Shown: positions 2,299 through 12,273 of the stretch, piece by piece | How the letters are laid out: every line of letters begins with the position of its first letter | Numbering within the stretch: the first letter of the stretch is position 1 | IMG/VR virus record: IMGVR_UViG_3300021959_000441 | Location: 1-22,344 of that record | Reading direction: 5' to 3' (one strand) | Source of the DNA: a virus | DNA length: 22,344 bases | The notes under the pieces: generated by a model | What the model saw: the letters and a program-made list of their open reading frames with translations, nothing else | Databases searched by the model: none | Told to the model about the DNA's origin: nothing | Made by a program: the position numbers and the translations under genes

Positions 2299-2690
2299 AA
2301 CCTAATGATGGCAGAAAGAATAATGGTAGAAAGAAGGGGGATAAGTATGGGTCAAAGAAACAGTTGATTAAATCAGCTTCACAATTAACACCAGCTAAGA
2401 AAGAGAGAATATCTGTCTATGCTTTAAATGCAATGAAAGATGTTTTTGGTAGTGAAGAAGAAGCTTGGAAAGCACTAGCAGAACAAGCAAAGGATTCTTT
2501 TGCACACATGAATTTGTTATGGCAATATAGATATGGTAAGCCTCAGGATGGTAATGAAGACAATTCTAAGAAGAAGTTAAATGTACCTGTAATTAATTTC
2601 TATGCCTCACATAATCAAGTAGAGAAGTTAGAAGATACAATAGATATAGAATCAGAAGAAGTAGATATGGATGAATTAAATGATGAATAA
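2265..2690 (+). CDS. Terminase small subunit-like protein
   Basis: This 141-residue protein lies directly upstream of, and overlaps by 11 bases, the large terminase gene. The N-terminus is strongly basic (GRKNNGRKKGDKYGSKK, about 16-32), as expected for DNA binding. A helical core (about 43-92) contains EEAWKALAEQAKDSFAHMNLLWQYRYGKP, a pattern common to small terminases of Bacteroidota phages. The tail is acidic. The role would be recognition of the packaging site and loading of the motor subunit. The assignment rests on position plus this pattern; no close homologue was checked. Confidence 0.7.
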   Translation: MGRAKQNSAYIKPNDGRKNNGRKKGDKYGSKKQLIKSASQLTPAKKERISVYALNAMKDVFGSEEEAWKALAEQAKDSFAHMNLLWQYRYGKPQDGNEDNSKKKLNVPVINFYASHNQVEKLEDTIDIESEEVDMDELNDE

Positions 2691-3897
2691 TCTAAAGTTA
2701 AACGATAAATATAGTCCTCTGTTTACAGAAAAGAGTAGATACTTTGTATGTACTGGAGGTAGAGGTTCTGGTAAATCATTTGGTGTAGCTGTATTCTTAT
2801 TGTCATTAACCTATGAACAAGGACATAAAGTTTTGTTTACTAGGTACACTATGATATCAGCACAAACGTCGATTATCCCCGAGTTTATAGAAAAAATAGA
2901 CTTAATGGGAGTCAATGAACACTTTAGGATTACTAAAGATGAAATTATAAACATAACGACAGGAAGCTCAATAATCTTCAAAGGCATCAGAACATCAAGT
3001 GGTAACCAAACAGCCGCCCTGAAGTCTCTAAATGGCGTTACAACGTTTGTTATTGATGAGGCAGAAGAGCTAACAGATGAATCTACATTTGACAAGATTG
3101 ATTTCTCTGTAAGGTCACAAACTAAACAGAATAGATGTATATTGATATTAAATCCTACGACTAAAGAACATTGGATATATCAAAGATTCTTTCAAAGTAC
3201 AGCAGTAAACTCAGGATGGAATGGTTCTTCTAATAAAACTACATACATACATACAAGTTATAAAGACAATAAAGATAATTTGTCTGATTCGTTTCTTGAG
3301 CAGATATTTGAAATGAAACTAAAGAGACCAGACAAATATGAACATCAGATACTCGGAGGTTGGCTTTCTGCGGCAGAGGGTGCTATCTTTAAGAACTGGA
3401 GAGTAGGAGATTACATACAAACAGAAGTCACCTGCTATTGTCAAGACTTCGGATTTTCAGTTGATTTGACAACGCTTTGTAAAATTTCAGTAGATAAAGC
3501 TTTAGGTAAATTATATGTAAAAGAAATCTATGGAAAGGCAGGATTATCCACGACTGAAATAGCGATGAAGAACAAAATGGAGTGTGGAGCTGACTTAATT
3601 ATATGTGACTCAAGTGAACCTAGACTTATCAAAGAAATAAAACAAAAGGGAGACTTAAACATAAGACCTACAATAAAAAAGAAAGGTAGTATACTTTCTG
3701 GTATTGCATTGATGCAAGACTACGAGATTGTAGTAGATAGAAAGTCTCATGGTATTGTAAGAGAACTAAACAATTATGTATGGCAAGAAAAGAACACTAA
3801 ACCTAACATTGGTTACGAACATTACATTGATGCTATAAGATATGGACTTACATTCTTGATACAAGGTCAGAACTCAGGAAAGTATGTTATCAGGTAA
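2680..3897 (+). CDS. terL: Terminase large subunit
   Basis: This is the DNA packaging motor: an N-terminal ATPase and a C-terminal RNase H-like nuclease, 405 residues, the normal length for the PBSX/Terminase_3 type. Visible motifs are Walker A GGRGSGKS (26-33), Walker B VIDEAEE (124-130) with E127 as likely catalytic glutamate, the coupling motif LILNPT (155-160), and nuclease aspartates D256 (CQDFGFS), D310 (IICDSSEP) and D384 (HYIDAIRYGL). All key residues are present, so it should be active. It partners with the small subunit just upstream and docks on the portal, whose gene is about 17.6 kb further on. The stop codon abuts a repeat array. Confidence 0.95.
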   Translation: MMNNLKLNDKYSPLFTEKSRYFVCTGGRGSGKSFGVAVFLLSLTYEQGHKVLFTRYTMISAQTSIIPEFIEKIDLMGVNEHFRITKDEIINITTGSSIIFKGIRTSSGNQTAALKSLNGVTTFVIDEAEELTDESTFDKIDFSVRSQTKQNRCILILNPTTKEHWIYQRFFQSTAVNSGWNGSSNKTTYIHTSYKDNKDNLSDSFLEQIFEMKLKRPDKYEHQILGGWLSAAEGAIFKNWRVGDYIQTEVTCYCQDFGFSVDLTTLCKISVDKALGKLYVKEIYGKAGLSTTEIAMKNKMECGADLIICDSSEPRLIKEIKQKGDLNIRPTIKKKGSILSGIALMQDYEIVVDRKSHGIVRELNNYVWQEKNTKPNIGYEHYIDAIRYGLTFLIQGQNSGKYVIR

Positions 3898-8157: not shown

Positions 8158-8553
8158 ATGAACACACACACAGAAACAGAAAACAAAACACAGACAAAAC
8201 AAGAAACTAAATTTGATGAGTTAACTACTTTAATAGATGATTACACTGGTATATATTTACCTGATTATTTAGATGAAGATGACATTGAAGATATAAATGA
8301 TTCAGATGATTTGTACAATGATTTAGATAATAATGAAGCTTTTAATATTGATATAATTTACTACAATAGAGCAATGGAATATTTATCTGAAAACGACTTT
8401 AGCTTATCAGAGTCAATACAAATCGCCGTTGATATGGGCTATTCATTAGAAGACATAAACTCTGAAACCCTTGCAAGTTTACACGCATCTCAAAAAGCTA
8501 GAGATGATTTCTGGGACATTACAGATGAAATAAATGAGATACTGAGCCGATAA
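8158..8553 (+). CDS. 131-residue acidic accessory protein, unknown
   Basis: The N-terminus repeats the Thr/Asn/Lys-rich low-complexity start seen at 7470 (NTHTETENKTQTKQETK). A very acidic segment follows (YLDEDDIEDINDSDDLYNDLD, about 38-58). The third part is helical: YYNRAMEYLSENDFSLSESIQIAVDMGYSLEDINSETLASLHASQ. That part looks like a conserved domain I have seen in flavobacterial phage and plasmid proteins without a name. It is the last gene before a strong terminator, ending the accessory transcript. Confidence 0.65.
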   Translation: MNTHTETENKTQTKQETKFDELTTLIDDYTGIYLPDYLDEDDIEDINDSDDLYNDLDNNEAFNIDIIYYNRAMEYLSENDFSLSESIQIAVDMGYSLEDINSETLASLHASQKARDDFWDITDEINEILSR

Positions 8554-8578
8554 CATTAAACCCTCTTAAACACGCCAT

Positions 8579-8604
8579 AAAACCCCTTTAATTAGGGGTT
8601 TTTT
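8579..8604 (+). terminator. Rho-independent terminator ending the accessory operon
   Basis: AAAACCCCT pairs with AGGGGTTTT around a TTAATT loop, followed by further Ts. The stem-loop core CCCTTTAATTAGGG recurs in the terminator at 21082-21106. The bases just upstream (8556-8580) contain two partial copies of the dispersed repeat, TTAAAC and CTCTTAAACA, so the whole 3' end resembles the one after the tail-tube gene. Confidence 0.9.
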
Positions 8605-8829
8605 TATGTCCTATACTTGCTCTTTTAAGTAATGGACTTTTTTTATAACTCATTTGTAATTAAATAGGCTATCTATCTGAGATATAACAAACAAAGATGA
8701 TTTTATCCCCTTTAAGACACTTTCTCCTTATCTCCTATATAAACATATCACTTAATTATTAAAGTCTCTTAGAAAGCTTTATATTAAGTCATAAACTTTA
8801 ACATAATATTAACAGAAATTATTTGTATA
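8605..8829. other. Non-coding stretch before the candidate RNA
   Basis: I see no ORF, tRNA or strong hairpin in these 225 bases. A weak AAGT...ACTT stem with a T run lies at about 8627-8645. The rest is ordinary AT-rich spacer, probably containing the late promoter near its right end, though no good TAnnTTTG element is visible there. Confidence 0.4.
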
Positions 8830-8839
8830 TTAACGTAAA
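8830..8839 (+). promoter_or_regulatory. Second exact TTAACGTAAA motif
   Basis: This is the same 10-mer as at 78-87, preceded by TTTGTATA. It stands about 12 bases before the first hairpin of the candidate structured RNA and upstream of the whole tail module, a reasonable place for a late promoter. The evidence is only the repeat and its position. Confidence 0.2.
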
Positions 8840-8845
8840 ATGAAT

Positions 8846-9335
8846 TATACTGGGCTAAGTAGCCCTCTTCTATGAATTCAAACCATTTTGAGTTAGGGGG
8901 TGGCCTTTTTCTTGCAACCAGCATTAGGGTAGGCACCCCAGAAAATTATAAGCAAACTGATTTTTATAAGAAAGTAGAAGTAGAGACTATGATGCATTGC
9001 AAGAGTACTTCTATATATAAACCCAATATAGTTCTCTTCTGTAGTATGCACCCCCTAAACATCTTTAAATAAACAGAAATATGCAGGTAAGGTTGAATAA
9101 TGTTTGGGTGCTGTACAAAAGATGATTAAAAGAATAACATTGCAATCACTTAGCTGACTTAATGTGCCTGAACCAACTGCCTTACGCTTGTGACAGAAGT
9201 TTAGGAACTTGTTTAGTAGATTTCCAACTACATTAAGATAACTACAATATAGTGTTTTTGTTCAACCTATACAAGTTATATGAGGTAGTTTATACTTAGT
9301 CTAAATAAGGCGTGGTACAGAATACTACTTTTTAA
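8846..9335 (+). ncRNA. Candidate large structured RNA (about 490 nt) at the head of the tail module
   Basis: This stretch has no convincing ORF, is G-richer than nearby spacers and contains many complementary segments. Hairpins: GGGCT/AGCCC (8852-8865) and AATTCAAA/TTTGAGTT with a 4-base loop (8875-8894). A 10-bp GC-rich pairing, TTAGGGGGTG (8893-8902) with CACCCCCTAA (9049-9058), encloses GGGT/ACCC (8927-8938) and TAGAAGTA/TACTTCTA (8975-9013). A second domain is nested: AGGTTGAA/TTCAACCT (9090-9097, 9261-9268) encloses CTTAATGTG/TACATTAAG (9158-9166, 9229-9237), which encloses AAGTT/AACTT (9197-9210). A last stem AGGTAGT/ACTACTT (9283-9289, 9324-9330) runs into Ts. Size and phage setting recall GOLLD and ROOL RNAs, but I recognise no signature of either. 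It could instead be a long 5' leader of the tail genes. Pairings were found by eye, not folded. Confidence 0.45.
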
Positions 9336-9358
9336 GTTATCATATTATATATGAATAT

Positions 9359-10072
9359 ATGGCAATAATAGAATTGGAATTAAGGGTACCTCAAAAGTTA
9401 GAAGCTATTAAACTTAGACAGTACCAAGAATATTTAAAAATACAAAAAGAGAATGAAGGTGTTGAAGACAATGGAAACTTTCTTAACTCTAAATGTATTC
9501 AAATATTTTGTGGATTAACATTAAAGGAATCTTATAATCTTCCTGTAAAGATGTTTGATGGTGTATTACAGCAAATAGGCAAATGCTTTGAAGAATCTAC
9601 TCCACTAATAAAAGAATTTAGCATGACTGGTTCTAATGGTGTAGAGGTTAGCTTTGGTATGATACCTGCTTTAGACGAAATGACATTTGGTGAGTATGTA
9701 GATTTAGAAAGCTTTATATCTGACTGGAGTAATATGCACAAAGCTATGGCTGTACTGTATAGACCTATCACGTTCAATAAGAATGGCAAATATCTAATTG
9801 AAGATTACGATGGCTCAGATAAGTACTGGGAGGTGATGAAAGATGCTCCTGTTAATGTTGCTTTAGGTGCCATGGTTTTTTTTTATCGTTTAGGGAAAAA
9901 ATTATCGAAATATACGATGGATTATTTACAGCATCAGCAAACTCTTCAGGATTCCAAGTCGGACAAGGATTTGGAAAAAAGTGGGGATGGTATCAGTCAA
10001 TTTACGCACTTGCTGGAGGAAAAGTATCAGGAGTTAATGAAGTTACAAAAATTCCATTACACCAGTGCTTAA
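9359..10072 (+). CDS. Tail assembly chaperone, short (G-like) form
   Basis: The 237-residue product has a globular N-terminal domain with SFGMIPALDEMTFGEYVDLESFI (98-120), a pattern common to a tail-region protein of Bacteroidota phages. Its C-terminal part (about 176-237) includes SGDGISQFTHLLEE, also typical of these proteins. Because a second conserved peptide is read in the -1 frame over the same DNA, I identify this as the unshifted form of a lambda gpG/gpGT-type chaperone pair. These proteins load tail tube subunits onto the tape measure. The start ATG at 9359 follows a long non-coding leader; an out-of-frame ATG at 9351 gives only five codons. Confidence 0.75.
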   Translation: MAIIELELRVPQKLEAIKLRQYQEYLKIQKENEGVEDNGNFLNSKCIQIFCGLTLKESYNLPVKMFDGVLQQIGKCFEESTPLIKEFSMTGSNGVEVSFGMIPALDEMTFGEYVDLESFISDWSNMHKAMAVLYRPITFNKNGKYLIEDYDGSDKYWEVMKDAPVNVALGAMVFFYRLGKKLSKYTMDYLQHQQTLQDSKSDKDLEKSGDGISQFTHLLEEKYQELMKLQKFHYTSA

Positions 10073-11091: not shown

Positions 11092-12273
11092 ATGTCAACA
11101 ATAATAAATTCAAGAAGTCCGTATTATTTTAAAGTATCTGATTCAAGTTTGAATTCAGCTACAGTTCAAATATATATATGGACTGGTCAATATTCGGATA
11201 GAGTCGCAGGAGACTTAAAATATACCTTATCCAAACAAGAAGTTGGAGATACTAATTATGTAGTATTTGAAGTTAGTGAGCTTGTAAGAGACTTTCTTGA
11301 AACAGAATATGGTAACTATTCTACAGACACTATTTGGACTGACATAGATACTACCATATATGACTCAGACGGGAACATAGTACAGGTTGGTGGGGAAGAC
11401 ACAGTAACAAGTGCATTTTTAGTTTTAGATGGTTATGGATATTTTGAGGAGGCAACTAATCCTAGAACAAGCACAGACCCAACAGCTTCTTCATATACAC
11501 CTCAAGTATTACAAAGTAATCTAAACGTATATTTTAATTCAGGAGAAGACATTAAGATACCCGTATTTGCAGAAGCACAATCTTATGTGACATTAACTTC
11601 TGCTGCTGGTGCTAATATAAATTGGGAAGATGCAGATGAATTTTGGGATGAATACGATGTGTTATGGGGTTCTGGTGCTACCCCTATACAGATAGTAGAT
11701 AGTGGGGATTCTGACCAAAAGATTCAATATATAATTATTACTGACACTGAAAACTTAGCAACAGGAGATAAAGTTACTTTTGTTAGTCCTGCTCCTCCAG
11801 CTACGCCAACCCAAACTACAGTAATAAACTTAATATCTGTCGCAGAAGCTAAATACACTCCATTAAACATAATATTTTATAATAAATTTGGAGCATTACA
11901 GAATATGTGGTTTTTCAAGAAATCTACAAACTCTATAAACGTTACCTCTGAGAATTACAAATCTAACATATTAGACCTAGATAATAATGGAGGCACACCT
12001 TCTTATGTTATAAATAAACATCAAGAGAAAATATTTATGGTAAATTCAAGAGAGTCTATAAGTGTAAGTACGGATTTTATAAGTGAAGAATACAATGAAG
12101 TAATAAGACAGTTATTAAATAGTGAACAGGTTTGGGTAGATGACGGAACAAATGTTTTACCTATAAACCTAAAAAGCAAATCATTTGAACTTAAGAAAGG
12201 TGTTAATGATAGATTTGTGAACTATACGATATCATTTGACTATGCGTTTGACAAAATAAACAACATACTTTAA
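11092..12273 (+). CDS. Tail structural protein (393 residues), probably tail tip or baseplate
   Basis: The N-terminus (SRSPYYFKVSDSSLNSATVQIYIWTG) is beta-rich, followed by FEVSELVRDFLE and, later, PLNIIFYNKFGALQNMWFFKKS (about 256-277). This overall pattern is common among proteins between the neck genes and the tape measure in Bacteroidota phages. The middle contains Ser/Thr-rich, acidic linker segments typical of exposed virion proteins. There is no enzymatic motif. A single-base overlap with the next gene suggests the two products are made in step. The exact place in the tail is inferred. Confidence 0.55.
   Translation: MSTIINSRSPYYFKVSDSSLNSATVQIYIWTGQYSDRVAGDLKYTLSKQEVGDTNYVVFEVSELVRDFLETEYGNYSTDTIWTDIDTTIYDSDGNIVQVGGEDTVTSAFLVLDGYGYFEEATNPRTSTDPTASSYTPQVLQSNLNVYFNSGEDIKIPVFAEAQSYVTLTSAAGANINWEDADEFWDEYDVLWGSGATPIQIVDSGDSDQKIQYIIITDTENLATGDKVTFVSPAPPATPTQTTVINLISVAEAKYTPLNIIFYNKFGALQNMWFFKKSTNSINVTSENYKSNILDLDNNGGTPSYVINKHQEKIFMVNSRESISVSTDFISEEYNEVIRQLLNSEQVWVDDGTNVLPINLKSKSFELKKGVNDRFVNYTISFDYAFDKINNIL

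Follow-up and report, generated by a model that had tools for sequence, protein, structure and literature searches.

The stretch of DNA analysed here, called the window throughout, is a 22,344-nt (22.3-kb) IMG/VR record of a tailed phage that is kin to Bacteroidota phages. An exonuclease gene (440–1204) and a terminase gene (2680–3897) are followed by small accessory genes, a spacer (8553–9359), a gene for a 237-aa protein (phrog_32199; 9359–10072, plus strand) and a structural module with an XkdF-like head-protease-like gene and a match to a virion structural protein. A sequence-only reading had proposed a giant structured RNA of about 490 nt in this spacer, between accessory and tail modules. 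The accessory genes do lie upstream, while the genes found downstream are the head-protease-like gene and the virion-structural-protein match, which do not demonstrate a tail module. The same reading had called the 237-aa protein a chaperone, a label that no tool supports; the only relatives of its gene in isolate phages, at ~27% identity, occur in Nonlabens phages P12024L/S.

The upstream accessory operon ends in an intrinsic terminator (8579–8602, plus strand) with a 9-bp stem plus T run, which is kept in relatives with altered letters. The best Rfam match in the spacer at a permissive threshold, the rimP leader, covers only this terminator and was rejected. The -7 consensus of Bacteroidota-type promoters is TAnnTTTG, and a probable element of this type lies at 8818–8825 (plus strand), at the same position in relatives, reading TATATTTG in most of them versus ATTATTTG in the window. 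Together, terminator and -7-like element suggest a transcript start near 8831, expected within 8831–8836, and a probable 5′ leader (8831–9044, plus strand) that would consist of a conserved part (8831–8892) and a variable hairpin region (8893–9044).

As had been proposed, the spacer holds no credible gene: stops occur in nearly all frames and no frame is conserved. The complementary segments singled out earlier are also present, for example TTAGGGGGTG (8893–8902) and CACCCCCTAA (9049–9058), which had been considered uncommon by chance; by our estimate, a 490-nt sequence of this composition should hold ~0.2–0.3 perfect 10-bp matches. The folding energy of the 490 nt, −113 kcal/mol, was not notably better than that of dinucleotide shuffles (−107.0 ± 6.1, z −0.98), 16 of 100 of which folded as well, and the opposite strand of the spacer folded equally well (z −1.27). 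Of the 10-bp helix, the 5′ arm falls into the least conserved stretch (30–79% identity, with large gaps) and the arm at 9049–9058 overlaps the covarying helix A described below, so that the two pairings compete. In L117 the partner strand now reads GCGGCCC, the G-run arm is unchanged and A′ has changed to match. Neither the helix formed by AGGTTGAA (9090–9097/9261–9268) nor that formed by CTTAATGTG (9158–9166/9229–9237) shows compensating changes across relatives, and the same is true of a hairpin at 9197–9210, where the 5′ AAGTT is near-constant and the 3′ side variable. Since compensating changes support not one of these four helices and the energy is unremarkable, the evidence first put forward does not carry the proposal. 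A new structured RNA is nevertheless present, with helices other than those first drawn, as established by strong covariation in related phages, the stronger test than folding energy.

The family was built from contigs sharing the spacer, which were found via relatives of the 237-aa gene, and 40 further viral contigs came from scans with the constant motifs, a structure filter and a covariance model. Besides the window, 40 IMG/VR contigs and three Flavobacteriaceae-type genomes carry the core. In the window it occupies 9048–9176 (plus strand, as are all features below) and combines single-stranded motifs that stay constant with three helices arranged as A-B-C-A′-B′-C′, every helix crossing both others. 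Helix A pairs GCACCC (9048–9053) with GGGTGC (9106–9111), helix B pairs CATCTTT (9060–9066) with AAAGATG (9118–9124) and helix C pairs AATGTT (9099–9104) with AACATT (9136–9141). The conserved motif 1 (9081–9098) is unpaired and reads ATGCAGGTAAGGTTGAAT, with TGCWGGTNAGNNTGAAT/TGTAT in the family; motif 2 (9142–9161) reads GCAATCACTTAGCTGACTTA and motif 3 (9168–9176) CTGAACCAA. The full constant order is A5, B5, motif 1, C5, A3, B3, C3, motif 2, motif 3, and the constant unpaired motifs across the family are TGCWGGTNAGNNTGAAT, GCARTYNYTNARCWGNCTTA and CTGAWCCAA. Because strand C5 directly abuts strand A3, with 0–1 nt between them, helices A and C are probably stacked as an H-type pseudoknot, both loops of which would be zipped together by helix B. 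Compensating changes in the crossing helices are visible by eye, with GCACCC/GGGTGC in the window, and CATCTTT/AAAGATG compared with GAACCTT/AAGGTTC in L020. The core is 86–97% identical, versus 30–79% in the spacer just upstream (8893–9044), and core plus the 3′ part from hairpin P to helix J (86–100%) equal or exceed the conservation of the neighbouring gene. With stops in nearly all frames, conservation of the core above that of the spacer argues for an RNA and not a protein.

Among 18 representatives, 336 of 342 pairs are formed despite lettering that differs by lineage. Each strand pairs with its own partner in 107/108 (A), 124/126 (B) and 105/108 (C) positions, and there are 10, 9 and 12 distinct 5′ strands, respectively. 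When the 3′ strands were permuted between sequences, the observed totals were reached in 0 of 20,000 permutations for every helix. The covariation score, calculated on a plain, structure-unaware MAFFT alignment in which part of helix B is misplaced, was 0.533, compared with 0.193 ± 0.020 for shuffled data and ≤0.194 with the partners slid; in this alignment each of the six pairs of helix C shows changes in both partners. A rough tree from 36 motif columns, built without the helix columns, gave about 79 two-sided pair-keeping changes, 1 one-sided change and 7 changes breaking or restoring pairs. Controls matter here because helices A and B were picked by a complementarity search, in which G-U was penalised. 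No search is needed for helix C, as C5 always directly follows TGAAT/TGTAT and C3 always ends before GCA; in its register, 75 pattern-matching stretches without the RNA paired over 0–3 bp, versus 4–8 in the members. The core qualifies as a structured RNA family, its helices being maintained by compensating changes to a degree not reached in the shuffled or slid controls. One G-U pair was found among the 342 pairs of the core helices in the 18 members, a count to which the G-U penalty in the selection of A and B may contribute. The near-absence of G-U pairs and of one-sided changes is unusual for an RNA family.

A blind test used a covariance model that contained only helix C and covered 397 genomes from the same family as G001, in which the Flavobacterium locus L165 lies. 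It returned one match, G318 C3:287823-287973, with an E value of 5e-9 that is approximate owing to the short model calibration. The helices of G318 (A, TACGCC/GGCGTA; B, TTTATGTTT/AAACATAAA; C, AACTGT/ACAGTT) were all missing from the training set, and their pairing was equalled by 0 of 1,000 shuffles. As A and B were absent from the model yet are perfect in G318, this match is an independent confirmation. G789 and G783, of the same genus as G318, were found next. A pattern scan of genome contigs gave no true member, and the RNA was not found in 395 phylum-wide genomes; two further genome matches, G811 and G879, were rejected because the motifs are absent from both and G811 reads as a coding gene. 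A distant DNA search of INPHARED phages gave no core match and only two 30-base edge matches, and the RNA was not found in Immutovirus, Nonlabens P12024L/S or one Riemerella phage. Chance complementarity in an AT-rich spacer, without a functional fold, would agree with a folding energy equal to that of shuffles; for helices A, B and C it is excluded by the swap, covariation, control, blind-test and tree results, and we give it hardly any credence. Nested folding is blind to crossed helices, and folding-energy screens therefore miss such RNAs.

Three further elements follow the core in the window's lineage, namely a variable hairpin, another pseudoknot and finally a closing helix. Hairpin P (9177–9196) lies directly 3′ of CTGAWCCAA, and its arms change together, from CTG/CAG in the window to CCATA/TATGG, CTATG/CATAG, TAGG/CCTA, CAGG/CCTG and TAAGC/GCTTA elsewhere. 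AAGTTT comes next, and then helices F (GGAA/TTCC, 9204–9207/9222–9225) and G (GTAG/CTAC, 9216–9219/9228–9231), which cross each other in a second H-type pseudoknot (9204–9231) and read GAAG/CTTC with ACAG/CTGT in L111 and GAGG/CCTC with ACAG/CTGT in L020. Swap tests reached the observed pairing in 0/20,000 (P), 0/20,000 (F) and 6/20,000 (G) cases; since these strands were assigned by hand, the support is weaker than for A–C. Helix J, which follows, pairs GATAACT (9237–9243) with AGTTATC (9335–9341), the latter being the probable 3′ edge of the RNA, and a variable 3′ loop (9266–9334) lies between its arms. It is near-invariant in the window's lineage and is replaced at the matching place in L090 and L095 by GACAATAG(A)/TCTATTGTC, i.e. 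GACAATAGA/TCTATTGTC. The conserved part thus amounts to only about 300 nt (9045–9341), well short of a giant RNA.

Several other features were noticed in this 3′ region. In L090 and L095, another hairpin that covaries (AGTGACAT/ATGTCACT versus GATTGGAGT/ACTCCAATC) lies between the J arms, and hairpins downstream of the core (L090 1385–1605, L095 8620–8830) resemble terminators that would serve the opposite (gene) strand. In L111, a putative HNH-type endonuclease gene (11249–11734) sits on the opposite strand inside the variable 3′ loop between the J arms; NCBIfam gave no match for it, and the HNH label is our own reading.

The carriers are unrelated Bacteroidota phages and small elements inserted in bacterial tRNA genes, and the surroundings of the RNA vary accordingly. 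In L090 and L095, which are related to Flavobacterium phage immuto, it lies between genes of the other strand, whereas in L121, L123 and L159 it follows lysis genes and precedes an unrelated NinG gene. In L159 and L123, a small basic ORF ending in ...KSSKNYKKLYRGQGR was seen just upstream of the RNA and stops no more than ~10 nt from helix A. For L090, L095 and the genomic copies, the transcribed strand is predicted from the consensus orientation and the A-rich loops, and the RNA so read is oriented opposite to the genes on both sides in these two phages and in three bacterial genomes, including loci L291 and L296.

These contexts bear on a cis-acting 5′ leader that would regulate how the 237-aa gene and the structural module are translated. 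Position and strand of the RNA beside this gene are constant within the window's lineage, with the 3′ strand of J (9335–9341) ~20 nt upstream of the start codon; with the same-strand gene just downstream and no terminator in between, a cis role is possible there. As a general account the leader is improbable, since on the predicted strand no gene directly follows the RNA in L090, L095, L291 or L296, NinG takes that place in L121/L123/L159, and phages whose version of the 237-aa gene is more distant have the gene but lack the RNA. A position upstream of a controlled gene in all members, as expected of a riboswitch or cis-leader, was not found. The varied contexts and the distant genes without RNA show that the RNA is not tied to the 237-aa gene, and its opposite orientation in two phages and three genomes makes a stand-alone RNA acting in trans more probable than an mRNA leader.

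We therefore consider it an even call that the family represents a stand-alone noncoding RNA of ~300–500 nt acting in trans as a pseudoknot scaffold that shows constant motifs to one shared partner. Such an RNA would be made during infection as an independent transcript, its pseudoknots would build a rigid scaffold presenting motifs 1–3, and these motifs might bind one shared partner (the ribosome, or a protein of host or phage), an interaction that would benefit the carrier, whether a phage or a small integrated element.

The main rival to this scaffold is a ribozyme, in which the crossed core with its constant loops would form a catalytic site that cuts or trims the transcript and thereby releases the RNA or the end of an mRNA. 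Ribozymes typically combine crossed pseudoknots and variable helices with fixed loops, the genomic context varies freely, and the putative HNH gene occupies a peripheral loop in L111, the kind of site where group I introns carry homing genes. Against catalysis, Rfam 15 contains no ribozyme or intron family that matches, and in the window there is no upstream exon, the RNA being preceded by a terminator and a probable promoter; we regard a ribozyme as rather unlikely.

The genomic copies introduce a further aspect. In G318 and G789 the RNA lies beside a tyrosine integrase and between direct tRNA repeats, which in G318 (L291) are tRNA-Ala repeats of 43 nt spaced 3.9 kb apart and in G789 (L296) tRNA-Asn repeats of 98 nt spaced 7.6 kb apart. 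The elements (L291 8441–12382, L296 2923–10655) have the integrase at one end and the RNA on the other strand, and no capsid gene was recognised in either when their ORFs were read or scanned, part of them by profile. With an integrase, att repeats at a tRNA gene and no recognised capsid genes, the genomic copies belong to elements that are possibly phage satellites. Both elements encode a conserved protein of 107/114 aa that matches no known family; reading it as a small terminase found no support and no terminase match. The L296 element also carries a row of lipoprotein-like genes, and a second, diverged copy of the integrase 3′ end is present in each (L291 9538–9602 and 11069–11133; L296 4033–4118 and 5046–5131), a pattern that tandem insertion of two elements, followed by decay of one, might leave.

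The presence of the RNA in both phages and tRNA-inserted elements without recognised capsid genes, together with a terminase gene 5 kb upstream of it in the window, would suit a role in DNA packaging or its parasitism, as a pRNA-like or recognition element common to both. We think this improbable, as the RNA lies near lysis and recombination genes in L121/L159, the small protein beside it in the integrated elements lacks a terminase match, and the phi29 pRNA serves a different type of motor. More doubtful still is a minor rival in which the pairing is selected in the DNA, as a single-stranded fold at an origin, nick or recombination site. The single G-U pair and the integrases and att repeats adjoining the genomic copies agree with it; the conserved promoter-like element and terminator that flank the RNA in the window's lineage and the A-rich unpaired stretches on the predicted strand speak for a transcript instead, and none of the nearby genes was recognised as a replication initiator.

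That phages of different types and small integrated elements alike carry the RNA suggests a function from which both profit, and the constant motifs, with a small panel of test RNAs, put direct tests of this function within reach. A more far-reaching and doubtful proposal is a triple-crossed catalytic or hijacking RNA class of Bacteroidota phages and tRNA-inserted satellites, the helices of which would be re-lettered per lineage, through two-sided changes and with hardly any G-U pairs, against cross-pairing between competing elements.

Rfam 15 gave no match at gathering score and no meaningful weak match in the core, and no match in the window or in L007, L008, L010, L018, L020, L090, L121, L290 and L293. 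The covariance models of GOLLD and ROOL were not matched, in agreement with the sequence-only reading, and neither were the Rfam models of self-splicing introns and self-cleaving ribozymes. The open-access literature searched yielded no paper on this RNA, which is not proof of absence. We regard this as a previously uncatalogued family of structured phage RNA; covariation this clear without a catalogue entry is uncommon among large structured RNAs, and the three-way crossed topology is rare.

Some features are shared with known systems. A putative HNH gene can occupy the 3′ loop (L111), as in group I introns and HEARO (the IscB omega RNA), whereas there is no Rfam match, exons or IscB here and none of the other members examined has the HNH gene. 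Like the phi29 pRNA, this is a phage-encoded structural RNA with paired loops, but of another size, fold and phage type and without an Rfam match. For PICMIs, a structured RNA is to our knowledge not a defining feature. They are described as small integrase-bearing satellites without capsid genes in Vibrionaceae (PMC10803314), and the genomic-copy elements resemble such minimal satellites in being small, integrase-bearing and without recognised capsid genes, but occur in a different bacterial phylum. The topology of three mutually crossing helices is identical to the ABCABC ‘pseudotrefoil’, a topological class and not a family, which a 2012 survey found in 51 RNAs versus 1,688 with a simple ABAB knot (PMC3390330). 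ROOL and GOLLD are pseudoknotted noncoding RNAs of phages and prophages, with varied context and function unknown (PMC12286853). The RNA described here is likewise pseudoknotted, noncoding and found in phages in varied contexts, but differs in its much shorter conserved part, its other fold and a location that is not consistently beside tRNA islands.
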